DNA of 64,000 nucleotides from Thermosipho sp. (in: thermotogales) (lineage in GTDB: Bacteria; Thermotogota; Thermotogae; Thermotogales; Fervidobacteriaceae): assembly GCA_017656345.1 (NCBI GenBank), contig JACDNZ010000004.1, positions 1-64,000 of the forward strand, given 5' to 3'. Position numbers and translations under genes: made by a program. This document shows positions 19,763 to 57,611 of this stretch, piece after piece. Below the pieces are notes generated by a model, which was given only the letters and a program-made list of their open reading frames with translations, searched no databases and was not told where the DNA came from. Numbering within the stretch: position 1 is the first letter of the stretch; every line of letters starts with the position of its first letter.

Positions 19763-20971
19763 ATGATTAGTAGTGCTGGATTTAGAAAGTATATTGCAAT
19801 AGCAGGAAGAAGAAATGTTGGCAAATCCTCTTTTCTCAATACTCTTATAGGGCAGGATGTGTCAATTGTCAGTAATATCGCTGGAACGACGACTGATCCT
19901 GTATTCAAAAGTATGGAACTCTCTCCAATCGGACCTATAACTTTAATCGATACTCCTGGGCTTGACGACATTGGAGAATTAGGACTAAAGAGAATCGAAA
20001 AAGCAAAAAAATCTTTATACAGAGCAGACGCCGGAATATTACTTGTCGACTCTCCACCCTCTGAATTTGAAAATAATATTATAAAAATCTTTCAAAAATT
20101 GGAAATTCCTTTTATAATTGCCATAAACAAAATTGATATTTTGGATGATGTTGAAAACATAAAAAAACAATATTTAAAATTTAATGTTCCAATTATAAAA
20201 GTATCCTCTTTAAAAAAGATAGGTTTTGAAAATATAGGAAAAATTTTATCTGAAATTATTCCAACTGACGATGAAATTCCCTTTCTTTCTGATCTAATAG
20301 ATGGAGGAGACCTCGTTATACTAGTTGTCCCAATAGATTTAGGTGCTCCAAAAGGAAGATTAATTATGCCACAAGTCCACGCAATTAGAGAAAGTCTTGA
20401 CAGGGAAGCTTTAGCTTTAGTGGTAAAAGAGAGAGAATTAAGATATGCAATTGAAAATATTGGAATTCAGCCAAAACTAGTCGTCACTGATTCTCAAAGT
20501 GTCATGAAAGTTGTATCTGACATACCCGATGATGTTCCATTAACTACATTTTCAATTTTAGAATCCAGATATCGCGGTGATTTACAATTTTTCGTTGAGA
20601 GTGTTAAAAGCGTAGAAAACTTACAAGATGGTGATACCGTTATAATTATGGAGGGGTGTACACATAGACCACTAACAGAAGATATAGGCAGAGTTAAAAT
20701 CCCTAGATGGTTAACCAATCATACAGGTGCAGCTTTAAATTTCAAAGTCTGGGCTGGTGTAGATATCCCTGAATTAGATGACGTTGAAAACGCAAAGTTA
20801 ATCATTCATTGTGGTGGCTGTGTAATGAATAGGAATTCAATGATGCGAAGAGTGAGAATGTTTAAAAGATTGGGCATCCCCATGACAAACTATGGTGTCA
20901 TAATTTCATATCTTCATGGTGTTCTAGAGAGAGCTATAAGCCCATTACTTTCAAAGGATGTGAACAAATGA
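19763..20971 (+). CDS. hydF: [FeFe]-hydrogenase maturation GTPase HydF
   Basis: 402 residues. HydF is the scaffold on which the diiron H-cluster precursor is built before transfer to hydrogenase. The N-terminal GTPase domain has GRRNVGKSS at 15-22, AGTTTDP and DTPGLDD. The C-terminal iron-sulfur domain has the defining pattern CxH at 299-301, then 47 residues, then HCGGC at 349-353. HydE, HydG and the hydrogenase itself are not in the window. SD AGAGGTG precedes the ATG. It overlaps the aspartase by 4 nt. Confidence 0.96.
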
Positions 20972-22332
20972 GAATTGAAAAAGACTACTTAGGACAAGAG
21001 GAAATTCCTGAAGAAGCTTTATATGGTATCAGCTCTGTAAGAGCCAGAAAAATTTTTCCGTCAACTGGCGAAGAATTTGACGAAAAGTTTATATGGTCCT
21101 ATTTTATGATTAAAAAAGCCGCTGCAATCTTAAACAAAGAATTAGGCTATCTCGAAGAATCAATTGCTAATGCAATTATTCAAGCAACAAACGAATGGAA
21201 CAATTTAAAAAAATATATTATCGTTGATCCATTGTCCGGTGGTGCGGGAACCTCAGTAAATATGAACATTAATGAAGTAATTGCAAATAGAGCTTCTCAA
21301 ATTCTAAACAAAGAATTTGGATACGTAAAACCTATTGAGCATGTTAATTTGCATCAATCAACCAACGATACTTACGTAACCGCAGGGAAAATAGCAACAA
21401 TAATTAGATTAAGAGAACTAGTAGAAAAAGTAATTCAACTCCAAGAAATAATCCAAAACAAGGAACACGAATACTATAAAATTAGAAAAGTAGGAAGAAC
21501 TCAATTGATGGATGGCCCACCAATCATGCTTGGTCAAGAATTCGGAGCCTGGGCAGACTCGCTGGCAAGAGACAGGTGGAGATTAAACAAAGTTGAAGAA
21601 AGAATAAGAAATGTCAATATAGGTGGAACAGCTATTGGCACAGGAATTGGCGCACCAAAAAATTATATACTGAAAATCACAGAAACCTTAAGACAAGTAA
21701 CAGGTATAAAAATAGCTAAAGCTGACAACCTGATAGATTCGACCCAAAATATGGATGTTTTTGCTGAAATTCATGGACTTTTAAAAGCTCTAGCGGTAAA
21801 TTTATATAAAATTTCAAATGATATTAGAATACTTTCAAGTGGTCCTAATACAGCAATTGGTGAGCTTACACTACCTCTTGTTCAAATTGGAAGTTCTATT
21901 ATGCCTGGGAAAATTAACCCAATTGTTCCTGAATACGTTATGCAAATATCACTTTTAATCTTTTCACATGACAGTTTGATCAACCATGCTTGTTCTCAAG
22001 GTAATCTTGAATTAAATCAATTTTCTCCTATTATAGTACATTACACTCTAAAATCTTTAAAATTATTATCCAATGCTTGTATATCTTTAGCTTCATATAT
22101 CGAAAAAATTGAAGCAAACGAACAAAAATGTAAAGAAAATCTCGAAAAATCAATTTCTAACCTAACATCTCTAATAAATCTGTTCGGATATGAAAAAGTA
22201 GCAAACGCAATAAAAAAAGCCAATTACAATTTTTATAAAGCTCTCGATATACTTTCTCAAGAAAATAATATTTCAAAAGAAGAAATTATAAAAAAAATAG
22301 ATCCAAATAAACTGACAAAATTAGGTTTTTAG
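20968..22332 (+). CDS. aspA: Aspartate ammonia-lyase (aspartase)
   Basis: 454 residues of the fumarase/aspartase superfamily. Signature [12 protein letters not shown] is present, with [11 protein letters not shown] and HQSTNDTY upstream. The segment [17 protein letters not shown] has Gln where fumarases have His (GRTHL), which points to aspartase: aspartate to fumarate plus ammonia. Coupling to hydF by an ATGA overlap suggests a role in hydrogenase maturation, possibly supplying ammonia for the dithiomethylamine bridge; that link is inferred from context. Slightly shorter than E. coli AspA. Confidence 0.88.
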
Positions 22333-22342
22333 GGGTAATCAA

Positions 22343-22633
22343 ATGACAATAAAATTTTCAGGAAGTTTAAAATATTATATAAGTTCCAAACAAATAGAGG
22401 TGGAATTCAAAAACAATCTTGAAGATCTCTGCGCTGAAATAAGTAAAAAAATTGGAAAAAAATTAAAATGTTTACTTGATTTTGAAAACAAGAAAAGTTT
22501 CATAATTCTAGATGACAATGGAACAAAAGTAAGGTTTTCGGCAATATTTTTAAATAATGGAGAAAACCTTTTAACAAAAAAATCTTTAGAAGATGGAGAA
22601 TTATTAATTATCTTACCAGTAGGTGGTGGATAA
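22343..22633 (+). CDS. Ubiquitin-like sulfur carrier (MoaD/ThiS type)
   Basis: 96 residues, ending in ILPVGGG, a di-glycine-type tail as in MoaD, ThiS and ubiquitin-like proteins, activated as an adenylate or thiocarboxylate. The body alternates strands and one helix (NNLEDLCAEISKKIGKKLKC), fitting the beta-grasp fold. Its stop shares a base with the start of the ThiF-like gene, so the pair is almost certainly functional together. No molybdopterin or thiamine genes are adjacent. Confidence 0.82.
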   Translation: MTIKFSGSLKYYISSKQIEVEFKNNLEDLCAEISKKIGKKLKCLLDFENKKSFIILDDNGTKVRFSAIFLNNGENLLTKKSLEDGELLIILPVGGG

Positions 22634-23298
22634 TGTTAGATATAACAAGACATCAAAAATTAATTGAGGATATCTCAGACAAAATATATAATAGTAATAT
22701 TTTAATTGCTGGAGCTGGAGGTTTAGGTTCAACTGTACTGGAAAATCTTATAAGAATAGGATTCAGAAATATTACAATATTCGATCCAAAAAAAATCGAT
22801 CCACCTGATTTGAACAGACAAATATTATATGATCAAAGCGATATTGGTAAAGAAAAAGTTCTTATAGCCAAAGAAAAGCTTTTAAGAATCAATCCCGAAT
22901 GTAATATTACAATTTTCCAAGAAAAATTTCCAGGAAACAGCCACTTTAACGCCAAGTGTGATTTAGCATTTGACTGCCTTGACAATATTGAAAGTAGGTT
23001 TATCCTGGATGATTTTTGCCAGATAAATAAAATCCCCCTAATTCATGCTGCCGTTGAAGAATACAAAGGGCAAATAACAATCATTTACCCCGGAAAAACT
23101 AAAAGTTTAAAGCAAATCTTAACAGGAGCTTCCACTCCTATTCAGCCTCAGGTCTTACCACCAACTGTGATTATTGCCGCTTCTATACAAGTTTCCGAAG
23201 CCTTAAAAATATTAAAAAATGACTTTGAAAATTCTTTGTTAAACAAAATGCTACTTTTCAATATTTACTATAATGATTTTGAAATAATTAACGTTTAA
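22633..23298 (+). CDS. E1-like adenylyltransferase (ThiF/MoeB/HesA family)
   Basis: 221 residues. ATP site GAGGLGSTVLENLIRIG, then DPPDLNRQILYDQSDIGKEK (the Arg-Asn-Gln substrate motif) and DCLDNIESRF are all family marks. It should adenylate the C-terminal glycine of the carrier encoded just upstream. The CxxC zinc pairs of MoeB/ThiF are absent and no rhodanese domain is attached, so it is a short form. No clear terminator follows before the next promoter. Confidence 0.88.
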   Translation: MLDITRHQKLIEDISDKIYNSNILIAGAGGLGSTVLENLIRIGFRNITIFDPKKIDPPDLNRQILYDQSDIGKEKVLIAKEKLLRINPECNITIFQEKFPGNSHFNAKCDLAFDCLDNIESRFILDDFCQINKIPLIHAAVEEYKGQITIIYPGKTKSLKQILTGASTPIQPQVLPPTVIIAASIQVSEALKILKNDFENSLLNKMLLFNIYYNDFEIINV

Positions 23299-23320: not shown

Positions 23321-23349
23321 TTGACAATTTTTTGTTATAGTGTTATACT
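23321..23349 (+). promoter_or_regulatory. Consensus promoter of the YtrA-type operon
   Basis: Perfect -35 TTGACA (23321-23326), 17-bp spacer, -10 TATACT (23344-23349). The expected start is near 23356, inside the palindrome described separately. Confidence 0.85.
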
Positions 23350-46642: not shown

Positions 46643-47149
46643 TTACTCAAAAGGATAAAATCCAAGATCTAAGCTATTCTTCTCGTAGATCCTCGAAATA
46701 AGTTCATTAACTAATTTTACATGTCCTTCTTCCCATTTTTTCAAGTTTTCCAAAATTTCTTTCAATTCTTTTTTTCCTAATTCTTCAGCTTTATTTGCAG
46801 CCTTATCGTAAAAATTAACAAAATCCTTTTCAATTAACAATGCCATTCTTAAAATTGATAAATCCTTCAAGTCATCTTCAGAAGGCGTTACTTCAATTTT
46901 TTGAGTTTTAAACTTCTCATCAAAGAAGCTCTTCGTAGTATCAACGATAACTTCTGGAATTTCATTATTTTCCTCAAGTGATTTTCGTATTTTTCTTATA
47001 TATTCTGTATGTTCTTTTTCCATATTTTGTAAAAATTCCAAAATCTCCCTTGCTAATTTATTTCTAATTTCCTCTTTTTTAGCTTTATAAAATTTAAAAC
47101 CCTCTATCTCAAAATTTTCTGCAACTTTTAATATATCTTCAATGGACAT
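46643..47149 (-). CDS. Ferritin-like diiron protein (rubrerythrin-type, no rubredoxin domain)
   Basis: 168 residues. A four-helix bundle with all ligands in view: Glu in FEIEGFKFY, ExxH in MEKEHTEY, Glu in LIEKDFVNFY and ExxH in WEEGHVKL. The rubredoxin domain of true rubrerythrins is missing. Such proteins reduce peroxide or store iron in anaerobes. The start shares one base with the stop of the NuoI-GltD fusion gene (TAATG), so it is the last cistron of the mbx operon, perhaps protecting its iron-sulfur clusters. Confidence 0.85.
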   Translation of the reverse strand: MSIEDILKVAENFEIEGFKFYKAKKEEIRNKLAREILEFLQNMEKEHTEYIRKIRKSLEENNEIPEVIVDTTKSFFDEKFKTQKIEVTPSEDDLKDLSILRMALLIEKDFVNFYDKAANKAEELGKKELKEILENLKKWEEGHVKLVNELISRIYEKNSLDLGFYPFE

Positions 47150-48999
47150 TATTTCACCCCCTTGGAAAGGTATTCATCAATACCTCTAGCTGCCCAGTAT
47201 CCATCAGCTACACCATGAATTATGTCTGGGCCATTTACAATATCCCCACCTGCAAACAACCACTCTATATTTGTTTGTCTATACTCATTTGTAACTAATC
47301 GTCCTCTTACAAACTCAAGTTGTTCTTTCAAATCTTCTGGTAAATAGCTGTAATCCGGAGCTTGACCAATCGCTTCCACTACCATATCTGCATCAAGATA
47401 TAACTTTTGAATTTCATCAAACTTTGGATTAAATCTTCCGTTTTCATCAAAAACTTCCACACACTTCTTTAACTCTACTCCTTTTATTTTTTCTTCATCA
47501 ATGATTATCCTAACTGGTCCCCAACCAGGATAAAATTCAATACCTTCTTCAGAACCTTCCTCTATTTCCTCCATATCCGCAGGCATTTCATCGAAAGTTC
47601 TTTCAAGACTTGTTACCTTTACATCAACCTGTCCGTATTCTACTTTTTGAAGCCTTGCTATTGACCTTGCAACATCCATTGCAACATTTCCTCCGCCAAT
47701 CACAACTAAACTCTTTGGAATTTTTGGTTTTGGACCCTCACCCCTCAAATAGTCCCTTATTTCTCTCAATAAGGGTAATGCTTGTAAAACATCTTCATGA
47801 TCTGTACCGGGTACTTTTGTACTTCTCCCTAACGAAAATCCAGTTGAAATAAATACTGCATCATATTTTTCTTTTAAACTTTCTAAAGAAATATCTTTGC
47901 CCACACTTATACCAACATGAATTTTTACACCAAGAGCTTGAATAAACGCAATATCTTTATCAAGAGCTTCATCGGGTAACCTATATGATGGAATTCCATA
48001 TCTCATTACTCCACCGGGCTTTGAAAGAGATTCAAAAACCTCAACATCATACCCCATGGTTGATAAGAAATATGCTGCTGAAAGCCCTGCAGGGCCTGAA
48101 CCTATAATTGCAATTTTTTTATCTTTTTTCGCTGGCTTTATTTCGATAATTTTCTTGTAATCAGAAACATTATCGACTATATACCTTTTAAGCCATCTAA
48201 TAGCTATTGCTTCCCCTCTATTTCCAATCGAACATGCTTCTTCACATTTATGCGTACACACTCTACCACATACCGCTGAAAATGGATTAGCACCTAACAT
48301 GTTATTAGTTTCGTCACCTTTTAACAACCATTTCAATGCATCATTTAAGTCATCTTTCCATATTGCTTTTATATACTCCGGAATCTGCATATGTTGCGGA
48401 CATCTGTCTGTACACAATGCACATTCAACACATCTAGCTGCTTCATGTATAGCTTGTTCTTTACTATATCCCTTAACATATTCAATAAAAGACTGCACAC
48501 GTTCTTCTCCATCAAGCATTTCCATTTCAACTCTTTCAAGTTCTAGAAGCTCAGAAGCTTCATCTCTTACCCAACCTACAGGAACTTCTTCAATGCCATG
48601 AATTCCCTTTTCGGTAGGCGCAAATATAAAATCTTCAGGCTCAGGTGAAATGTGCACATATTCCCTTGTCATTTTTAAGGAACCAGTAGTACAAATATCT
48701 ACACACATTGCACAAAAAGAGCAACGTCCATAATCAATAACAGGCCTTTGAGGCTTTTGCCCATATTCTTGTGGTAAATCATCGACTTCAACCATTTTTA
48801 TTGCATCAGTTGGACAAATCTTTGCACAAGTTCCACAACCAATGCACTCATTCCAATCATTTATATGAAATCCTCTATATCTTTCCGCTGCTTCTCTTTT
48901 AACATATGGTACTTTTATGGTCACTGGTTTTTTAAATAAAAATTTCCAAGCTTTGATCGGTGAAAAAAAGTCTTTATCTGGCATTGTTTTATTCTTCAT
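47149..48999 (-). CDS. Fusion of NuoI/MbxN ferredoxin subunit and GltD/NfnB-like flavoprotein
   Basis: 616 residues. Residues 45-110 hold two [4Fe-4S] motifs (C52/55/58/62 and C93/96/99/103), as in NuoI/MbxN. Residues 185-260 hold the GltD/NfnB cysteine set (C190/193/196/200 and C244/248/252/256). Then comes the FAD motif GSGPAG at 300-305, the NAD(P) motif IGGGNVAMD at 434-442 and a final AGGDIVNGP. It would connect the membrane complex to NAD(P)H. Archaeal MbxN lacks the flavoprotein half. SD GGGAGGTGG. Glutamate synthase is unlikely: no large subunit is present. Confidence 0.9.
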   Translation of the reverse strand: MKNKTMPDKDFFSPIKAWKFLFKKPVTIKVPYVKREAAERYRGFHINDWNECIGCGTCAKICPTDAIKMVEVDDLPQEYGQKPQRPVIDYGRCSFCAMCVDICTTGSLKMTREYVHISPEPEDFIFAPTEKGIHGIEEVPVGWVRDEASELLELERVEMEMLDGEERVQSFIEYVKGYSKEQAIHEAARCVECALCTDRCPQHMQIPEYIKAIWKDDLNDALKWLLKGDETNNMLGANPFSAVCGRVCTHKCEEACSIGNRGEAIAIRWLKRYIVDNVSDYKKIIEIKPAKKDKKIAIIGSGPAGLSAAYFLSTMGYDVEVFESLSKPGGVMRYGIPSYRLPDEALDKDIAFIQALGVKIHVGISVGKDISLESLKEKYDAVFISTGFSLGRSTKVPGTDHEDVLQALPLLREIRDYLRGEGPKPKIPKSLVVIGGGNVAMDVARSIARLQKVEYGQVDVKVTSLERTFDEMPADMEEIEEGSEEGIEFYPGWGPVRIIIDEEKIKGVELKKCVEVFDENGRFNPKFDEIQKLYLDADMVVEAIGQAPDYSYLPEDLKEQLEFVRGRLVTNEYRQTNIEWLFAGGDIVNGPDIIHGVADGYWAARGIDEYLSKGVK

Positions 49000-49014
49000 A
49001 ATATTCCACCTCCC

Positions 49015-50118
49015 TTATCTGTCAACCTCTGGAGCACAAACATCCATTGTAGAGAGCCATATTGGAACATCCTCTATTCTGGTTCCTGGTAAATATTTCT
49101 CTACACCGATAAATGTTTGAGGATATGATGCACCACGAACTGCTACCCTATATGGTTTTTCCCCACCGTCGGAAACCATAAAGTAACCATATTCTCCTCT
49201 CGTTGATTCAATATGTACATAAGCCTGACCTTTCGGAACTTTATATCTAAGTGCACTACCCTCACTTAAAGGAACATTTACTTTTCCTTCGGGCATCTTT
49301 TCAAGACATTGTCTTATGATTTTTATACTCTGATATATTTCCAGATATTTAAGATAAACTCTTGAATATGCATCACCATCAGTTGCAGTTGGAATCTCAA
49401 AATCAACTTTGTCATAAAACAAGTAAGGATCAACTTTTCTAATATCATATGGTACTCCAGTTGCTCTTAAACCTACACCTGTAACACCCAATTCTAATGC
49501 AGTTTCTCTATCAAGCAATGCTATTCCTTTTAATCTTGTATGAACAATTCTATTTTTAAATATTAAATCCTCATAATCTGGTAATCGGCCTTCAATATAA
49601 TCTAACGTTTTTACAATAAGGTCTTGAATTTTTGGTGTTAAATCCTTTCTGACACCACCTGGTACAATAAACATATGATAAATTCTCGCTCCAGTTAAAC
49701 TTTCGAAAATATCCAATATACGATCTCTATCAGCTACTCCCCAAAAAGAACTTGTATAAAGTCCTAAAGGGCCACCAATACCGGGGAAACTCATCATATG
49801 ACTTGCAATTCTTGCTAGTTCTAAAATAATCATTCTTATCCACTGCGCCCTTTCAGGTACATCTATCTTTGCAATTTTTTCAATTGCCATAGCATAACAT
49901 ACTTCATTAATATCAGGCTCTGGAACACATATCCTTGGAATTAAAGCTAAATTCTGATACCATAATCTCCTTTCCATCAATTTTTCAAAACCCCTGTGTA
50001 AAAAACCAGGTAATGGCCTTGCTCTTTCAACAGTATCCCCTTCTACATACATGTGTACACTGAAGTTTCCATGCATTCCTGGATGATTCGGACCAAAAAA
50101 GAGTTTAACTTCACCCAT
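49015..50118 (-). CDS. mbxL: NuoD/MbxL-like catalytic-domain subunit
   Basis: 367 residues, homologous to the NiFe-hydrogenase large subunit and NuoD (FGPNHPGMHGNFSVHMYVEG, LPGFLHRGFEKLMERR, STRGEYGYFMVSDGG). Of the four nickel cysteines only one per pair remains: C64 in RICVPEPD (usual RxCxxC; E67 replaces the second) and C361 in DVCAPE (usual DPCxxC; E364 replaces the second). It cannot hold a normal NiFe site. The same state is known in archaeal Mbx/Mbs. It overlaps the NuoC-like gene by 8 nt. Confidence 0.9.
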   Translation of the reverse strand: MGEVKLFFGPNHPGMHGNFSVHMYVEGDTVERARPLPGFLHRGFEKLMERRLWYQNLALIPRICVPEPDINEVCYAMAIEKIAKIDVPERAQWIRMIILELARIASHMMSFPGIGGPLGLYTSSFWGVADRDRILDIFESLTGARIYHMFIVPGGVRKDLTPKIQDLIVKTLDYIEGRLPDYEDLIFKNRIVHTRLKGIALLDRETALELGVTGVGLRATGVPYDIRKVDPYLFYDKVDFEIPTATDGDAYSRVYLKYLEIYQSIKIIRQCLEKMPEGKVNVPLSEGSALRYKVPKGQAYVHIESTRGEYGYFMVSDGGEKPYRVAVRGASYPQTFIGVEKYLPGTRIEDVPIWLSTMDVCAPEVDR

Positions 50119-50641
50119 TTAAATCACCTCTTATTACTTTTGCTTCATGAATAACATCTTTATGATATTCTCTATCCGGGAATTTTTTCTTAGAATATTC
50201 CATCGGATCAAAATCTTTCCTCAATGGTGGTAAATCATCCCAGTTTTCCAAGAAAAGAGGTCTCATATCATCGTTACCTTCGAAACTGATACCAAAAAAC
50301 TCGTGAAGTTCCCTTTCATAATACCTCGCGATTGGCCATAAATGTTTAACAGTAACAAATTTTGCTTTCTTTCTATCTATTTTTGTTGAAACAATAAATT
50401 TACCACCATCATTCCACGAAAACAAAATATACACAAGTTCAAACTTATTTTCTTCTATCCAATCAACAGCTGTAATGATAGACAAGTGTGAATAACCGCT
50501 GCCTTTTAAAAGAGATAAAGCGTTTAAAACCATCTCTGGTTTTATTTCAATCTTTACTTCTCTTTCATCTATTTCTTCCACTTTCAAATTTCTAATTATC
50601 GATTTCAATCTTTCAATAGTATTATTCATGGAATTCGTCAT
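50111..50641 (-). CDS. mbxK: NuoC/MbxK-like subunit
   Basis: 176 residues. The conserved complex I 30-kDa motif WPIARYYERELHEFFGISFE is present, followed by PLRKDFDPMEY. It is part of the peripheral arm and has no cofactor. The start is the first ATG, seven bases after GGGGAGGTG. It overlaps the NuoB-like gene by 20 nt. Confidence 0.9.
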   Translation of the reverse strand: MTNSMNNTIERLKSIIRNLKVEEIDEREVKIEIKPEMVLNALSLLKGSGYSHLSIITAVDWIEENKFELVYILFSWNDGGKFIVSTKIDRKKAKFVTVKHLWPIARYYERELHEFFGISFEGNDDMRPLFLENWDDLPPLRKDFDPMEYSKKKFPDREYHKDVIHEAKVIRGDLNG

Positions 50642-51164
50642 GTATAAACACCTCCCCTAGTGAGCGCAACTGGTTCTGCTTATACCATTCATAATTTTCT
50701 TTGTATCTTTTCCAGCCATTTGCTTCTCCTTTTCTAATCATTCTCATAAGTTCATTAAAAGCTTCTAGCAATGCTTCAGGCCTTGGCATACAACCGGCAA
50801 TGTATAAATCAACTGGTATATAATAATCCAGTCTATTTATAGTTGCATATGAATCATAATATATTCCACCATTTAATGTACATGAGCCAAAACCAATTAC
50901 ATACTTGGGCTCTGGCATTTGCTCATATGTATAAATAACTCTTCTAAGTGTCTTTGCACTTAGATAACCCGTTATAAATAAAATATCAGCTTGTCTTGGG
51001 GTAGCCATTGGTCCCATTCCAAATCTTTCCATATCAAATCTCGAGGTCATAGATGGTGGTAGCTCTATAGCACCACATCCAGTACAATAATGAAGCATCC
51101 ATAATGATTTACTCCTTAATTGATCAGCTATTTTTTCCCATATACTTCTTTCGTTTGTAGACAT
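50622..51164 (-). CDS. mbxJ: NuoB/MbxJ-like iron-sulfur subunit
   Basis: 180 residues. Four cysteines for the proximal [4Fe-4S] cluster: two in YCTGCGAIELP, one in GFGSCTLNGG and one in AGCMPRPEA. It passes electrons between the ferredoxin subunit and the MbxL pocket. The start is an ATG behind GGAGGTGG; a GTG nine bases upstream is inside the SD. It begins 12 bases after the NuoH-like gene. Confidence 0.93.
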   Translation of the reverse strand: MSTNERSIWEKIADQLRSKSLWMLHYCTGCGAIELPPSMTSRFDMERFGMGPMATPRQADILFITGYLSAKTLRRVIYTYEQMPEPKYVIGFGSCTLNGGIYYDSYATINRLDYYIPVDLYIAGCMPRPEALLEAFNELMRMIRKGEANGWKRYKENYEWYKQNQLRSLGEVFIHDEFHE

Positions 51165-51176
51165 CCCAGCCACCTC

Positions 51177-52058
51177 CTAAAATACCCAACCAAGTAGTAC
51201 AAACAAAACCTGAACAAAAGCTAAACTTAATGGTACCTTCCAATAAAATTTTACAACTTGTTCGATTCTAAACCTTGGCAATACCGCGGAAATTAAAGTT
51301 GCAATTATCCAAACAACAGTAAATTTCAAAAGAAATGTTAAATAATTACTTATACCCAAGAATATATCAACAAACAAACTTATCTCAACAAATATCGAAA
51401 AAGTATGCATCAACATCAAAAGCCCCATATATTTTGCTGAAAGTTCAACCATAGGACCCGATGCAATTTCCGCAGGTGCTATTGGCGTATCAAAAGGTTT
51501 TTTCCCTAACATTCCTAATAAAGAAATAAAAGCAACTATTCCACCTATCGGCATTTTAAATAATGTCCAGGTATCTTGTTGGGCCATCATCAATCCTGAA
51601 ACTGAACTTGTCTTGTAATAATATAAAACTCCTGCTATAGCAACTAAATATGGTACTTCATATCCTAGCATCTGTGTCAATGCTCTTGCTACACCGATAC
51701 TAGCATTAGGATTACCTGAGCCAACCATCCCCATTGCCATTCCAAGAGCTCCCACTGCAAATAAATATACAATTATAAAAATATTATCAAGTCCTGGAAA
51801 AGCTACTAAATCACCTAAAGGCACAAAGGCTAATGTTGCAATAACTCCTCCCAAAGCCATTAAAATTCCAAAATCAAAGATCCAACCATGGGAAATTCCC
51901 CTTTTTGAAAGTGCTTTAAAAACATCTATAAAATTTTGGTACCATGGTGGACCATATCTTCTTTGTACTCTTGCCATTATTTTTCTAGCAATACCTTCCA
52001 ACGTTAAACCCACAAAAAATCCAGTCAATAAAACAGCTATTACTCTTAATACTGTCAT
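51177..52058 (-). CDS. mbxM: NuoH/MbxM-like membrane subunit
   Basis: 293 residues, about eight membrane helices. Family marks are EGIARKIMARVQRRYGPPWY near the start and GKKPFDTPIAPAEIASGPMV, with acidic residues of the E-channel. It links the peripheral arm to the antiporter-like subunits. Compact operon spacing continues (4-11 bases). Confidence 0.93.
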   Translation of the reverse strand: MTVLRVIAVLLTGFFVGLTLEGIARKIMARVQRRYGPPWYQNFIDVFKALSKRGISHGWIFDFGILMALGGVIATLAFVPLGDLVAFPGLDNIFIIVYLFAVGALGMAMGMVGSGNPNASIGVARALTQMLGYEVPYLVAIAGVLYYYKTSSVSGLMMAQQDTWTLFKMPIGGIVAFISLLGMLGKKPFDTPIAPAEIASGPMVELSAKYMGLLMLMHTFSIFVEISLFVDIFLGISNYLTFLLKFTVVWIIATLISAVLPRFRIEQVVKFYWKVPLSLAFVQVLFVLLGWVF

Positions 52059-52061
52059 TAT

Positions 52062-53906
52062 CTACCACCTCACCCAAAATAATATGAGGATTACAATTGT
52101 TATCCAGAAAACATAACCACTTGGACTAGTCTTATAAACCAACTTATATGTAAAATATCCAATATATCTGAAAAATGAAACTAATTTTTCATACAGCTTT
52201 TCAAAAGAAGGATGTTTGTCATATAATCTTTCAATAAATCTATAAAATCCTGTTGCATAATGATATAAGTCATAATTGTAAAGATATTCTCCTCCAGTAT
52301 ACTGATCTGTTAAATCCACCTTTTTCCCTTTTGGGAATATCATATACAAAATAGCAGCAATTATAAATCCAACAGAAAACATTGTAAAAACAGTCAAAGT
52401 ATTCCATTGACCAAGAGGAGTTTTTATAATTGTTCCACTATGTTCAATTGCTTTAATTCCTACCTCATTTTCTATAGAAACAATACTATCTAAAACTGGT
52501 TTAGGATAAACACCAATCAAAATTGTTAAAATCACAAATAACAACATTGGAACAAGCATTATTATTGGTACTTCCTTCACATCAGAATGTTTTCTCTTCA
52601 ATTGTCCCAAAAACACCCCTGCAAGTGGTCTGAAAACATAAAGGAAAGAACCAACACTACCAATAAACGTTATTGCTAAAGTAATAAACATACCTTTACT
52701 AACAAGTGAACTAAAAATCATCCATTTTGATATAAAACCGCTTGTTGGAGGAATTCCCGCTAATGAAATTATTCCAACAAGATACGTGACAAATGTCCAT
52801 GGCATACGCCAAATTAATCCGCCCATTTCATCAATTTTAGTAGTTCCAGTTCTATAGACAACAGCCGCAAAAGATAAAAATATCATAGCAGCAGCTATTG
52901 CATGGTTAAATACATGAAAAAGTCCCCCAGCATAACCTATCGAGTTCATAATTCCTAATCCAACAAGAATATAACCACCATTTGCAATTGATGAAAAAGC
53001 AATTAATTGTTTCATATCATTCTGTCTAATAGCCATAAATGTACCAATTAATATTGAAATGTTACCAAGCCAGATTAAAACATAATTTAACAATGGTACT
53101 CCATGATAAAATGAAGAAAATAACTGTGTTGTAGGGAACACCGAAAGAGCAATTGCTAATACATATGAACCCATCTTTACTAATTGTCCAGATAAAACTG
53201 CGCTAAAAGCATCTGGAGCATTACCATGTGTAATTCTAAGCCATGTATGTAGTGGGAAAATACCACTCTTTGCAATCCCAGCACTCGCAATGAATAAAAT
53301 CACAAACCATTTAAATAAATTTGAAGAATCATTTGCTAAATATTGGGAAACCTGCTCAAACGAAAGAATCCCATATCTCTGGTAAATTGAAAAAGTTGCA
53401 AAAAGATACATATAACTTCCTATAGCACTTGTTACTACATATATAATTGCAGCTCTTTTTGATTCCTTCTTTCCCATTGGAACTATCAAAAATGATCCTA
53501 AAACTGCTATTTCCCAGAAAATATAAAGAGTCAATAAATCATTTGAGAAAAACACTCCCAGTATTCCAGAAACCATTAATAACAAAAATGAGTTGAAAGC
53601 AGCTGGTTTAATATCTTTTTTGCGAATCCACTCTATTATGAAAAATGCAACAAAAGAAATTACTATTAAACTTACTATAGCAAAATATTTCCCTAAATTT
53701 GTAACTTTTAAGGTTCTTTCTACATCCCTTAAAATTCTAAAAAGTACTTCTTCATGACCAACTTTAATGTTCCACACTACATAAAGAGCGTACGATATTA
53801 ATAAAAAGTTAAAAATTGATCCTAAAATCTTATTAGCTTTTGTTAATAAATAGCTTACAATTGAACCTATTAGGAAAACTAAAATCAAATTAGTCAATGA
53901 TATCAT
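52062..53906 (-). CDS. NuoL/M- and MrpD-like antiporter subunit (larger MbxH type)
   Basis: 614 residues, 14 or more membrane helices. The family's ion-channel residues are present: Glu in LYIFWEIAVLGSF and Lys in AGIAKSGIFPLHTWLR, with HNHAIAAAMIF-like HVFNHAIAAA further on. It is one of two antiporter-like subunits here, matching H and H' of archaeal Mbx; which is which is not certain. The extra C-terminal region (about 480-614) includes a soluble loop and a terminal helix. Confidence 0.88.
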   Translation of the reverse strand: MISLTNLILVFLIGSIVSYLLTKANKILGSIFNFLLISYALYVVWNIKVGHEEVLFRILRDVERTLKVTNLGKYFAIVSLIVISFVAFFIIEWIRKKDIKPAAFNSFLLLMVSGILGVFFSNDLLTLYIFWEIAVLGSFLIVPMGKKESKRAAIIYVVTSAIGSYMYLFATFSIYQRYGILSFEQVSQYLANDSSNLFKWFVILFIASAGIAKSGIFPLHTWLRITHGNAPDAFSAVLSGQLVKMGSYVLAIALSVFPTTQLFSSFYHGVPLLNYVLIWLGNISILIGTFMAIRQNDMKQLIAFSSIANGGYILVGLGIMNSIGYAGGLFHVFNHAIAAAMIFLSFAAVVYRTGTTKIDEMGGLIWRMPWTFVTYLVGIISLAGIPPTSGFISKWMIFSSLVSKGMFITLAITFIGSVGSFLYVFRPLAGVFLGQLKRKHSDVKEVPIIMLVPMLLFVILTILIGVYPKPVLDSIVSIENEVGIKAIEHSGTIIKTPLGQWNTLTVFTMFSVGFIIAAILYMIFPKGKKVDLTDQYTGGEYLYNYDLYHYATGFYRFIERLYDKHPSFEKLYEKLVSFFRYIGYFTYKLVYKTSPSGYVFWITIVILILFWVRW

Positions 53907-55265
53907 TTACATCCCTCCCAGAACGTTAGTAACGTATGCTCGATAATTGGTTAAACCATCTGCAATGTTTTGAGCCATTTTTAAATATAAATCCGGGAAA
54001 ATTCCAATAAATATAATCAGCAATGCAACTATTAAAAGAATCAAATTCACATTCCATGAAATTTTCTGTTTTTCTTCTCCGGTATTAGTTGAATGCCATA
54101 GTTTTATATTCCATTTCAAAATATATGCAGCTTCTATAACTGTAGCAAATAATACAACAGCTGGAAGTAAATAATTATCTTTTGAAAATGCTAATTGTAA
54201 AATCAATAATTTACTCCTAAAACCAGCAAAAAGAGGAAAACCTATAAGTGAGAACGAAGCAATACTAAACGATACACCAGCAATTTTATTCTCAGTAAAA
54301 TTATGAGCTATAGTAGCCGCAATTATGAACAATACTAGCTTTGCTGAAATATCATTTAGTAAATGGAAATAACCAAACTTAATCGCTTCATAACCTCCCA
54401 AAGAAATCGTACTTAAAACAAGACCAGCTTGAGCTATAGATGAAAAAGCAAGTGCTTTAATAAGCTTATTTTGTCTCAATGCTGCAAGTTCACCAAGCAC
54501 AATTGTTAAAAGTCCAAAAATGAAAACTACATCAAGAAAATAACCATGAAAAACTGTAATAAAGATTCTTCCAAAAAGGTACATTATTGTGAAAGTAACT
54601 CCTGTTCCAAGAATTACCGGTGTTAATGGTGAACCGGAATCATAAACATCAGGTACCCAACCAGCAAGCGGAAAAATTTTTGACTCTACACCTATACCGA
54701 TAAAAATTAATAACGCGACAATTGGCAAGAAACCTTCTTTAATATTCACAGAAATATCTGCAAAATTCAAAGAACCTGTTCCAATATATGCATAAATTGC
54801 TCCTAAAAGATAAAATGCACCAGAAATACCTCCCAAAATCAAGTACTTAAATGCACCGTATGGATTTTTTCTTGAAAAAGCAATAATGTAAGCAGCAACA
54901 GCCGTTATTTCTAAAAAGACAAATGAATTGAAAATATCTCCGGTTAAAACCAGACCATTGGTTGAAGCTAAAAGAATAAGTAAAACTACTGAATATCCTT
55001 TTTCAACTATCTGAGGCATCAAAGAAATCAAAAGAAATACAATATTCACAACTAACAATGAGTAATAGCTTGCACTATCTAACACCAAAACTATACCGAA
55101 TGGGGCTTTCCAACCACCCATTGCATTTGTCTGATCAGGTGATAACAATAAAAGAATTATCAAAGTTGTAATTACAACTAATGGAAGAATATATTTAGCT
55201 TTCTCTTTAAAAGGAATAAAAAGGAAACCAGCCAGTAAAGGTATTATAATTAATAAAGCACTCAT
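53907..55265 (-). CDS. MrpD-like antiporter subunit (MbxH type)
   Basis: 452 residues, about 14 membrane helices. Key residues: Glu in FNSFVFLEITAVAAYI and Lys in GVESKIFPLAGWVPDVYDSG, the typical MrpD pattern. It starts one base before the next gene's stop region and overlaps the MrpC-like gene by 4 nt. It should carry out sodium/proton exchange with the Mrp subunits. Confidence 0.9.
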   Translation of the reverse strand: MSALLIIIPLLAGFLFIPFKEKAKYILPLVVITTLIILLLLSPDQTNAMGGWKAPFGIVLVLDSASYYSLLVVNIVFLLISLMPQIVEKGYSVVLLILLASTNGLVLTGDIFNSFVFLEITAVAAYIIAFSRKNPYGAFKYLILGGISGAFYLLGAIYAYIGTGSLNFADISVNIKEGFLPIVALLIFIGIGVESKIFPLAGWVPDVYDSGSPLTPVILGTGVTFTIMYLFGRIFITVFHGYFLDVVFIFGLLTIVLGELAALRQNKLIKALAFSSIAQAGLVLSTISLGGYEAIKFGYFHLLNDISAKLVLFIIAATIAHNFTENKIAGVSFSIASFSLIGFPLFAGFRSKLLILQLAFSKDNYLLPAVVLFATVIEAAYILKWNIKLWHSTNTGEEKQKISWNVNLILLIVALLIIFIGIFPDLYLKMAQNIADGLTNYRAYVTNVLGGM

Positions 55266-55606
55266 TCTTCCGCCTCCTTTGTGGCGATCTGTTCAACATC
55301 CAAAGTTCCGTATTTTTCGTATACCTTAATTAACAATGAAGCTCCTAATGCTAATGTACCAACTCCAATAACAATTGCTGTAAGAACCAAAGCTTGTGGC
55401 AATGGATCAACAAAATTTGCAATCGGTGTATATTTAGAATAAATTGGAGCTTCTTTTCCCTCAATATAACCAAGTGAAATAATAAATATATTAACAGCAG
55501 TATCTACAATTGTAAGCGAAACAAGATGTTTAAACAAATTCTTTTGCGTTAAAAAACCGTAAATACCTACACCAATTAATATAAATGCAATATAATAAAC
55601 CATCAT
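55262..55606 (-). CDS. mbxG: MrpC/NuoK-like subunit
   Basis: 114 residues, three membrane helices, with DPLPQALVLTAIVIGVGTLA, the signature of MrpC/NuoK. It overlaps its neighbours by 4 and 1 nt. Small subunit of the sodium-translocating module. Confidence 0.9.
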   Translation of the reverse strand: MMVYYIAFILIGVGIYGFLTQKNLFKHLVSLTIVDTAVNIFIISLGYIEGKEAPIYSKYTPIANFVDPLPQALVLTAIVIGVGTLALGASLLIKVYEKYGTLDVEQIATKEAEE

Positions 55607-56325
55607 TATCCCTCCCTATGCAAGTCGGCAACAATTCCAGATAGTTCAGCACCAACTTTAAAACCAATTAAAATGTAAACAATAGGAACAATACCCGCAC
55701 TAAACAAATCTCCAACAATACCTGTGGGAAGGAAATTTATTAAAAAAACTCCAGCAATAGCTAATCCAACGAGTCCAGTAACAATATATAAGCTTCCTGA
55801 AATACCTTCAACAAATTTCGGAGTTTTTGATAAATCAAATTCTTCATTGGAAAGATATAAGAGTAAAATACCGGCTGCAATAATCGTTCCTCCAGGAAAA
55901 CCTCCACCCGGAGTTAAATGTCCATGAATAAAAATGTACGTACCAAATAAAATTATTAAAGGCAGTAAAATACCTACTGAAACCCTCAATATAAAATTTG
56001 GTCGTCTACCATATTTTTTTCTTCTAATACCATTCAAAACCAAACTGACTCCAAGTGCTGCTGTGAAAAGAACAGTCACTTCACCCAGAGTATCAAAAGA
56101 TCTATAATCTACAACTATTGACGTTACAACATTAGCTGCACCATTTTCTAAACTTTCTGATTCATTATATTTAACATTTCCACCATTGCCATTGACATTT
56201 TTATCAATATAGGCTTCCGAAACTTTCGAAATATTTACACTTCCATATTTTGGAAGTAAAGACAATGTGTTAATAAAAAACATAATAAGACCAAAAACAA
56301 TAACTATTGATATAAATCTTCTCAT
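55606..56325 (-). CDS. MrpB-like subunit with MbhE-like N-terminal part
   Basis: 239 residues. The N-terminal 110 carry one helix, a Gly/Asn-rich outer segment and NVVTSIVVDYRSFDTLGEVT, the MbhE/MrpA-end motif. The C-terminal 130 form an MrpB domain (HGHLTPGGGFPGGTIIAAGI). In Pyrococcus Mbh these are separate proteins (E and F), so here they are joined. It overlaps the DUF4040 gene by 4 nt. Confidence 0.85.
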   Translation of the reverse strand: MRRFISIVIVFGLIMFFINTLSLLPKYGSVNISKVSEAYIDKNVNGNGGNVKYNESESLENGAANVVTSIVVDYRSFDTLGEVTVLFTAALGVSLVLNGIRRKKYGRRPNFILRVSVGILLPLIILFGTYIFIHGHLTPGGGFPGGTIIAAGILLLYLSNEEFDLSKTPKFVEGISGSLYIVTGLVGLAIAGVFLINFLPTGIVGDLFSAGIVPIVYILIGFKVGAELSGIVADLHREG

Positions 56326-56561
56326 TGACTATCACCACCCATTTTATTCAGCGCGAGAACTAATACAGCAGTTGCCAGACCAGCTCCAACTGCTGCCTCA
56401 GTTATTGCCACATCAGGTGCTTTCATAATTACAAATAAAAATACAGTAAGAAGACTCATAAGTGATAGAGCAATGAAAGAATCTAACATTTTTTTCGCTT
56501 CAACTGCAAAAATGGCTGAAATTATTATTAATATCCCTACAAAAATAGTTACTCCTGTCAT
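56322..56561 (-). CDS. mbxD: DUF4040 (MrpA C-terminal/MbhD-like) subunit
   Basis: 79 residues, three membrane helices, with KAPDVAITEAAVGAGLATAV, the conserved DUF4040 motif with its key Glu. It corresponds to MbxD/MbhD. Four-nt overlaps on both sides. Confidence 0.88.
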   Translation of the reverse strand: MTGVTIFVGILIIISAIFAVEAKKMLDSFIALSLMSLLTVFLFVIMKAPDVAITEAAVGAGLATAVLVLALNKMGGDSQ

Positions 56562-56878
56562 TTGTTCCCACCACCCTTGTATTCGTCGACTTTAGTCTTG
56601 TCAGTTGGCTTAATACCTTTTAAATAGGCTGCTCTTGCCAAAACAGAACTTCCTACAGGATTAGTCAAAGCAATAAAAGCAATTATTATTAAAGCTTTAG
56701 GCAAAAATTCCAGGTTCACTAATCCAACACCCAAAATGACAGAGAACGACCCTAAGGTTGTAGCCTTAGTTCCCGCTTGAAGTCTGTTATAAACATCTGG
56801 CATTCTAAAAATTCCAAGACCACCTAAAAAGTAAAAAAATGCTCCAATTCCAATTAAAATATAGCCGATTGTAATCAT
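56558..56878 (-). CDS. mbxC: MrpG-like subunit
   Basis: 106 residues, three membrane helices; GGLGIFRMPDVYNRLQAGTK ATT is the MrpG signature. Assigned to the antiporter module by family and position. Confidence 0.92.
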   Translation of the reverse strand: MITIGYILIGIGAFFYFLGGLGIFRMPDVYNRLQAGTKATTLGSFSVILGVGLVNLEFLPKALIIIAFIALTNPVGSSVLARAAYLKGIKPTDKTKVDEYKGGGNK

Positions 56879-57132
56879 TTTTTCCCCTCCAAATGACGAG
56901 CAATAACAACTGTTTCAACAAAAGAAAGAAGCCCATAAACTAAAGCAATATCAAGATACAATCCGTTATTAAAAACCAGTGCAAGAAATACAATTGTCCC
57001 AGTTAAAACCACATTTAATGTATCTAGGGCAGCCAACCGATCAGCACTACTTGGACCTAAAAGAATTCTCAAAAACGAAAACAAAATTCCCAAACCAACA
57101 AATCCAAAATACACATAGTTTAATATATTCAT
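56875..57132 (-). CDS. mbxB: MrpF-like subunit
   Basis: 85 residues, three membrane helices; LLGPSSADRLAALDTLNVVL is the MrpF signature with its conserved Asp. Four-nt overlaps with both neighbours. Confidence 0.92.
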   Translation of the reverse strand: MNILNYVYFGFVGLGILFSFLRILLGPSSADRLAALDTLNVVLTGTIVFLALVFNNGLYLDIALVYGLLSFVETVVIARHLEGKK

Positions 57133-57611
57133 TCATATACCCCCTTTAAAATTCTTTCGAAAACTCCAGCAATCTTTTCTTTCTTTTCTTTTTCATCAAG
57201 GGTTTTTACATCGATCCAGTGAATAATCAGCTCATCATCTTCAATATCTAAAGTTAAAGTTCCGGGGGTTAAAGTAATAGAATTAGCAAGTGCAAGTTTA
57301 GCAGCATCTTTTTTCAAGTTAGTTTTAATTTTTACAAAACCAGGGTTGAGCGGTAAAGAGGGATTCAGTACTCTAACTGCAACATCAAAATTTGCTTTTA
57401 ACATTTGCCAAATAAAAACCGGTAAATAAATAAAAATAAATTTTATAATTCGCACTGGAAACTTGAAGTCAAATCTTATACCATAAAATCTTTTCAAAAT
57501 AATTGATACAACCAAAGATACAAAAAAACCAACAATCAATTCTTTGACGTCAGTAAAGCTCGTCAAAATCATCCAAGTGAAAAATGTCACAATTAACACT
57601 GAAAATGACAT
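57129..57611 (-). CDS. mbxA: MrpE-like subunit, first gene of the mbx operon
   Basis: 160 residues, two to three membrane helices, then a cytoplasmic domain with LANSITLTPGTLTLDIEDDE, the MrpE hallmark. SD GGAGGG. It opens a 14-gene operon in the order E-F-G-DUF4040-B-C-D-D/L-H-B-C-D-I(GltD)-ferritin. Confidence 0.92.
   Translation of the reverse strand: MSFSVLIVTFFTWMILTSFTDVKELIVGFFVSLVVSIILKRFYGIRFDFKFPVRIIKFIFIYLPVFIWQMLKANFDVAVRVLNPSLPLNPGFVKIKTNLKKDAAKLALANSITLTPGTLTLDIEDDELIIHWIDVKTLDEKEKKEKIAGVFERILKGVYE

Follow-up and report, generated by a model that had tools for sequence, protein, structure and literature searches.

Why should the genes of a ubiquitin-like sulfur carrier and its activating enzyme stand immediately behind a hydrogenase-maturation gene? 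The question is raised by a stretch of 64,000 nucleotides from Thermosipho sp. (contig JACDNZ010000004.1, positions 1 to 64,000; hereafter the window), in which hydF and the aspartase gene aspA are followed on the same strand by such a pair (positions 19763-23298). A first-pass annotation of these four genes had proposed that the pair plays a dedicated part in the maturation of [FeFe]-hydrogenase. Our analysis settles the question mostly in a more ordinary direction: the association of the aspartase with hydF is already in the literature, and the chemistry of the pair is that of cofactor sulfur transfer. With a probability that we would put at roughly 0.7, the pair is an appended MoaD/MoeB-type module, ancestrally employed for the tungsten or molybdenum cofactor, that came to lie beside hydF by a rearrangement within the host's family rather than for a dedicated maturation function, and that now either serves another acceptor or is fading.

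The pair and the unit that contains it

The last gene of the unit encodes a MoeB/ThiF-type E1-like adenylyltransferase of 221 residues (22633-23298, + strand). It matches the ThiF family PF00899 with an E-value of 9.9e-56 and reaches none of the NCBIfam equivalog cut-offs. When twelve E1s are combined into a profile, E. coli MoeB (1jw9) is matched over residues 16-220 (E 6e-35), and across these twelve relatives the GxGGLG nucleotide loop, the DLNRQ motif, K75 and D114 are invariant; we take the Arg, Lys and Asp positions among them to be the catalytic ones.

The carrier gene (22343-22633, + strand) encodes 96 residues ending in PVGGG. Taken alone, this protein has no Pfam or NCBIfam family match, and it was recognized as a MoaD/Urm1-like beta-grasp sulfur carrier from its predicted structure and from profile comparisons. 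The model (mean predicted local distance difference test score, pLDDT, 90.8) has a beta-grasp fold, and its best structural matches are Urm1, MoaD-related, CysO-type and SAMP1 chains (Z 8.1-8.5, with the first three at 8.4-8.5). A Foldseek search with the same model returned nothing under E 0.001, the best match being Urm1 at 0.010. A carrier profile that includes carriers linked to aldehyde ferredoxin oxidoreductase (AOR) matches MoaD chains at E 1e-14; a profile confined to Thermotogota gives only a weak match (2g1e, E 0.0046). Because the stronger value rests on the profile with AOR-linked carriers, the structure model was used as a further check, and the alignment behind that model also contains such carriers.

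Judged from sequence and predicted fold, then, the two genes encode a MoaD/MoeB-type sulfur carrier and its activating enzyme: a beta-grasp protein ending in GGG stands beside an E1 adenylation fold that has both the nucleotide loop and the Arg/Lys/Asp positions. The resemblance to the E. coli system extends to the fold of MoaD itself (1fm0), which the carrier model matches at Z 6.5. Unlike its E. coli counterpart, however, the window carrier is too divergent for Pfam, and its E1, as read from the sequence, has none of the C-x-x-C zinc cysteines.

The two genes in front of the pair form a module that is already published. HydF, the H-cluster maturation GTPase (19763-20971, + strand; 402 residues), scores 517 bits against TIGR03918, whose cut-off is 325.6, and has the Pfam domains HydF_dimer and HydF_tetramer. 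The lyase (20968-22332, + strand; 454 residues) matches PF00206 and passes the curated subfamily cut-off of NF008909, "aspartate ammonia-lyase" (567 bits against 510), while remaining under the stricter aspA equivalog cut-off of TIGR00839 (407 against 681). The suggestion of the first-pass annotation that this aspartase could be the ammonia source for the bridge of the H-cluster has proved sound. According to PMC11736057, AspA and aspartate provide the dithiomethylamine nitrogen in vitro, in a defined, lysate-free maturation system of HydE/F/G with SHMT and T-protein, and aspA is strongly associated with hydF. Among other genomes of the order, the neighbor of hydF is aspA in 26 of 36 HydF regions, as it is in the window. 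Within this module the ammonium released by the aspartase would thus enter the dithiomethylamine bridge. In the hyd operons of the same source, too, the aspartase gene lies directly 3' of hydF and overlaps it; the window differs in having the carrier/E1 pair, the terms "ThiF" and "MoaD" occurring nowhere in the main text of that paper, figures apart. One genome of the order (G005) has, besides an intact hydF-aspA, a second and split hydF beside hydG (L067, G005:C1:913069-914027).

All four genes are tightly packed, just as first described: hydF and aspA overlap by 4 nucleotides, the carrier gene begins 10 nucleotides past the end of aspA, and the start ATG of the E1 gene shares one nucleotide with the carrier's stop codon. 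Directly past the E1 gene lies a promoter-like site, by consensus match only, of the next unit, a GntR/ABC operon (23321-23349, + strand; TTGACA-17-TATACT, 11 of 12 consensus positions). Given so strong a promoter-like site at this point, the stretch appears to read as one operon in two parts, hydF-aspA and the appended pair. A linkage of hydF with a MoaD/MoeB/ThiF pair is unreported in those portions of the literature that were searched; PMC3226654, which names both HydF and ThiF, lay outside that check.

The genomic company of the pair

The distribution of the pair was followed across 45 genomes of the order (G000 being that of the window), with hydrogenase maturation scored on the HydF and HydG models; the Fisher tests ignore shared ancestry. 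The pair is intact in 18 genomes: G000, G002-G011, G024 (fused), G025, G027-G030 and G043. Counted among these is G007, where a contig ends within the E1 and the carrier is not seen; left out are G023, G026 and G044, whose copies are broken or degraded, and the other E1 subfamilies of G032, G033 and G039. In G024 the GGG carrier reads in frame into the E1 as one open frame (L088:6699-7652), while G025 has the usual overlap; the fusion is either real or an assembly error and, if real, would leave the carrier no free C-terminus.

Within the order the pair keeps company with MoaA/MoaC: all 13 MoaA-positive genomes have it intact, against five of the 32 MoaA-negative ones (p 1.2e-7). With respect to HydG there is no such association (16/37 against 2/8, p 0.45), and the HydF-positive genomes divide into 16 with an intact pair and 21 without. 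These counts bear directly on the idea of a dedicated or auxiliary role in H-cluster maturation, in which the thiocarboxylate of the pair feeds, or its carrier modifies, HydF or a partner. A factor of that kind might well be expected in the same unit as hydF-aspA, at junctions as short as those described above. Moreover, the pair is linked to hydF in five genomes of two genera (G000, G027, G028, G029 and G030), with a remnant in G026, the link has outlasted an altered gene order in G028, and G000 and G028 retain the pair without MoaA. However, the pair is not present wherever the maturases are. In G023 and G026 it is frameshifted or deleted, although HydF, AspA and HydG are kept; G043 has it with no HydF or HydG match over the cut-off; in G025 it lies intact but away from hydF; and the defined system described in PMC11736057 matures the enzyme in vitro without it. 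Since the pair tracks MoaA and not HydG, since broken copies coexist with HydF, AspA and HydG, and since 21 of 37 HydF-bearing genomes do without it, a dedicated maturation role for the pair, as originally proposed, is unlikely; even with auxiliary forms included, we consider the whole idea very improbable.

Relatives in other genomes lie more often near a gene of a different kind than near hydF. In a scan of named genomes (the best 80 of 474 relatives, with a neighborhood of 8 kb), AOR lies within reach of at least 14 of the 80, many of the contigs being short, and hydF within reach of only two, both of the window's own genus. Among the nearest relatives outside the host's family are those of Marinitoga lauensis (50% identity), where AOR-carrier-E1 faces moaB-moaC-moaA-MOSC, and of a Bacteroidales genome (45% identity) with the arrangement AOR-E1; Halanaerobacter has AOR-carrier-E1-moeA-moaA-moaC. 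A survey of the phylum (30 loci read, within 1.5 kb, of 57 genomes with a match) found the pair adjoined by AOR in eight of the 30 loci and by aspA or hydF in five. At one of these loci (L268) the AOR-linked pair also has beside it a lyase that weakly resembles AspA (84 bits). In an 85-row tree, made by a quick method, the hydF-linked E1s fall within a 15-row clade (Shimodaira-Hasegawa-like approximate likelihood-ratio support, SH-aLRT, 96) together with their AOR-linked nearest relatives and with E1s from those genomes of the order that have AOR. AOR-MoaD-MoeB neighborhoods were described as tungsten-cofactor units by Iyer et al. 2006 (PMC1779556). Like the pairs treated there, that of the window combines a carrier with an E1-like enzyme, and its nearest relatives stand directly behind AOR; it differs in that its genome has no AOR, that it follows hydF-aspA and that the search of the order found no MoaE. 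The company of the pair thus comes close to being mainly that of molybdopterin loci, which the first-pass annotation had itself named as the distribution that would count against a dedicated role. The agreement is large but not complete, given the hydF link in five genomes and a pair that outlasts the loss of the molybdenum-cofactor genes.

Several observations weigh against reading the pair as an appended cofactor module. MoaE, the large subunit of molybdopterin synthase (PF02391), was found in none of the 45 genomes, even though 13 of them have MoaA and MoaC and 11 have AOR, in a search whose control was positive in 11 of 14 cases; the enzyme that usually accepts sulfur from MoaD is therefore missing even where MoaA is present. 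No AOR was found in the host's family, on which ground we rejected a service of the pair to AOR in the host itself. Five genomes (G000, G028, G024, G025 and G043) have the pair without MoaA. To judge from gene order, the hydF link, seen in two genera and kept through the reordering of G028, seems to exceed what chance placement would produce. Lastly, the carrier of G000 has changed faster than its counterparts in the genus (unique changes 23:8, p 0.011; 22:8, p 0.016), as judged by three overlapping tests with p 0.011-0.016, and its branch on a fixed tree is 0.63, against 0.09-0.14; this would fit either relaxed constraint or a changed role or partner.

In the Thermotoga thermarum genome paper (PMC4148951), neither moaD nor moaE could be identified. 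For the moaD of relatives of T. thermarum (genus g9), which would encode the small subunit of molybdopterin synthase, the divergent carriers that Pfam fails to recognize are good candidates. The gap is then more sharply drawn: 13 genomes have MoaA, and in none of them is a MoaE found.

The other classical employment of such a pair would be thiamine synthesis, with the two proteins acting as ThiS and ThiF. Against the ThiF model TIGR02356 the E1 does score 129.7 bits, although this is under the cut-off of 275. A convincing ThiG, however, is present only in G030 of the 45 genomes (E 1.5e-94), the rest giving weak partial matches of E 6e-10 or worse, and G030 has a separate ThiF-like protein in its thiC/thiG/thiH locus (the thi genes other than thiG being named by eye). 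In G000 the best ThiG match (E 4.8e-8) covers only 61 of 247 positions and is probably another (beta/alpha)8 enzyme. We have rejected the thiamine role and regard it as the least credible of all the explanations considered.

The pair after the loss of the pathway

That no thiamine or molybdopterin genes are adjacent, as the first-pass annotation had pointed out, is correct for the stretch but not for the genome, which has its own moa cluster, in ruins, on another contig (L137, G000:C14:18395-21390). There moaB-moaC-modA-MOSC-moeA is decaying, flanked by an intact glmS and an intact amino-acid transporter gene, and each of the five is either a fragment or interrupted by stops or frameshifts: moaC is half a gene with a stop, three stops and two changes of frame interrupt moeA, the MOSC gene has one stop and one change of frame, modA lacks both its ends, and the site has lost moaA and two ABC genes. 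MoaA was not found anywhere in G000, and as this genome is 96.6% complete, a second moa gene set elsewhere is unlikely. At the same glmS/transporter place G027 has an intact cluster, and in G028 the place is empty, with glmS and the transporter gene about 110 bp apart; both G000 and G028 keep an intact pair. Since G000 has no MoaA, only a MoaC fragment with a stop and a moeA pseudogene, the pair belongs to the molybdenum/tungsten cofactor kind by descent and not by way of a running pathway.

Xanthine-dehydrogenase-type Mo-hydroxylases (MoCoBD_2) nevertheless persist as open frames (L221-L227; for instance G000:C1:156260 and G026:C1:1717503). Their genes belong to what, judged by eye, are purine-degradation operons of G023-G026 and G028, all genomes without MoaA, MoaC and MoeA, G026 being a single contig; in G000 they are present while the moa cluster has decayed. 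These enzymes were considered as the reason for retention of the pair and rejected, since G023 and G026, with their broken pair, have them just as G000 does.

With the pathway decayed, the pair of G000 would either serve another acceptor or be disappearing. The extreme form of the second possibility is that it is a pure relic, the pathway having been lost so recently that decay has not yet begun. The ruined pathway genes of G000, the faster evolution of its carrier and the broken copies in G023 and G026 would all be in keeping with this. The E1 of G000, however, like its HydF and AspA, is not accelerated, and it keeps every column that is invariant in the 12-row alignment; neither gene of the pair has a single stop or frame change, against the five such lesions in what is left of moeA there. 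Inside the window's genus dN/dS (the ratio of nonsynonymous to synonymous substitution rates, omega) is saturated, so selection was judged on G024 and G025 rather than on the window's own lineage. In these two genomes, where MoaA, MoaC and MoeA were not found, omega is 0.13 for the E1 (28 synonymous and 15 other changes, p 4e-10) and 0.21 for the carrier (13 synonymous and 13 other changes, p 2.7e-4); the E1 of G003 and G005, which have MoaA and AOR, gives 0.12. For this reading the loss of the pathway must predate the split of G024 from G025, which is likely given that none of the four genomes of that genus has it. We therefore think it rather unlikely that the pair is nothing but a relic. 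The signature of purifying selection in close relatives that have no cofactor pathway suggests that the pair probably has a second job.

How the preferred reading, an appended cofactor pair that has outlived its pathway, would work can be outlined from the families involved. The E1 would adenylate the terminal glycine of the carrier; sulfur from a desulfurase, or sulfide, would convert this to a thiocarboxylate; and the charged carrier would then pass its sulfur to an acceptor. The ancestral acceptor was presumably cyclic pyranopterin monophosphate (cPMP), the pterin of the tungsten/molybdenum cofactor, to go by the co-occurrence with MoaA, the linkage to AOR and the position in the tree. For the present acceptor in G000 the choice is between a different one and none for much longer, and the selection data from the relatives favor the former. 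A bolder version would have the host's family employ the pair, independently of the molybdenum cofactor, in a second sulfur-transfer or protein-modifier function; the pair would persist after the pathway is lost, be held by purifying selection and be co-transcribed with hydF-aspA in two genera, possibly so that, when sulfide is scarce, the supply of sulfur is tied to hydrogenase maturation. We would give this version slightly less than an even chance.

One candidate for the second job, contained within the preferred explanation rather than separate from it, is another kind of sulfur transfer, either tRNA thiolation or protein modification, by analogy with Urm1, TtuB and SAMP. The carrier model does lie as near to Urm1 and SAMP1 as to MoaD-related chains, and the pair is retained without MoaA. 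In Thermococcus, according to PMC11323500, sulfur carriers serve both the tungsten cofactor and tRNA. The UblB protein described there (TK2118) is, like the window carrier, a MoaD-type ubiquitin-like protein, and its work for the tungsten cofactor overlaps into tRNA thiolation; it differs in being archaeal, while the window genome retains only a decayed cofactor pathway. However, no tRNA-thiolation or protein-modification gene is adjacent to the pair, and as a specific assignment this remains tentative and of low probability. More generally, a pair under selection without its cofactor pathway points to a further use of ubiquitin-like sulfur carriers in anaerobic thermophiles.

Two other loci may be mentioned. 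In G039 a sulfur-assimilation operon, its genes named by eye (L098, G039:C4:316500-330500), has a MoaD-like carrier of 91 residues together with E1-like, JAMM-like, TusA-like and CysH-like genes; its carrier and E1 belong to a different subfamily from the window pair. In the window itself, positions 47149-57611 (- strand) are occupied by what looks like the operon of a membrane-bound hydrogenase or an Mrp-type respiratory complex (Mbh/Mbx-like), again named by eye from its open frames.

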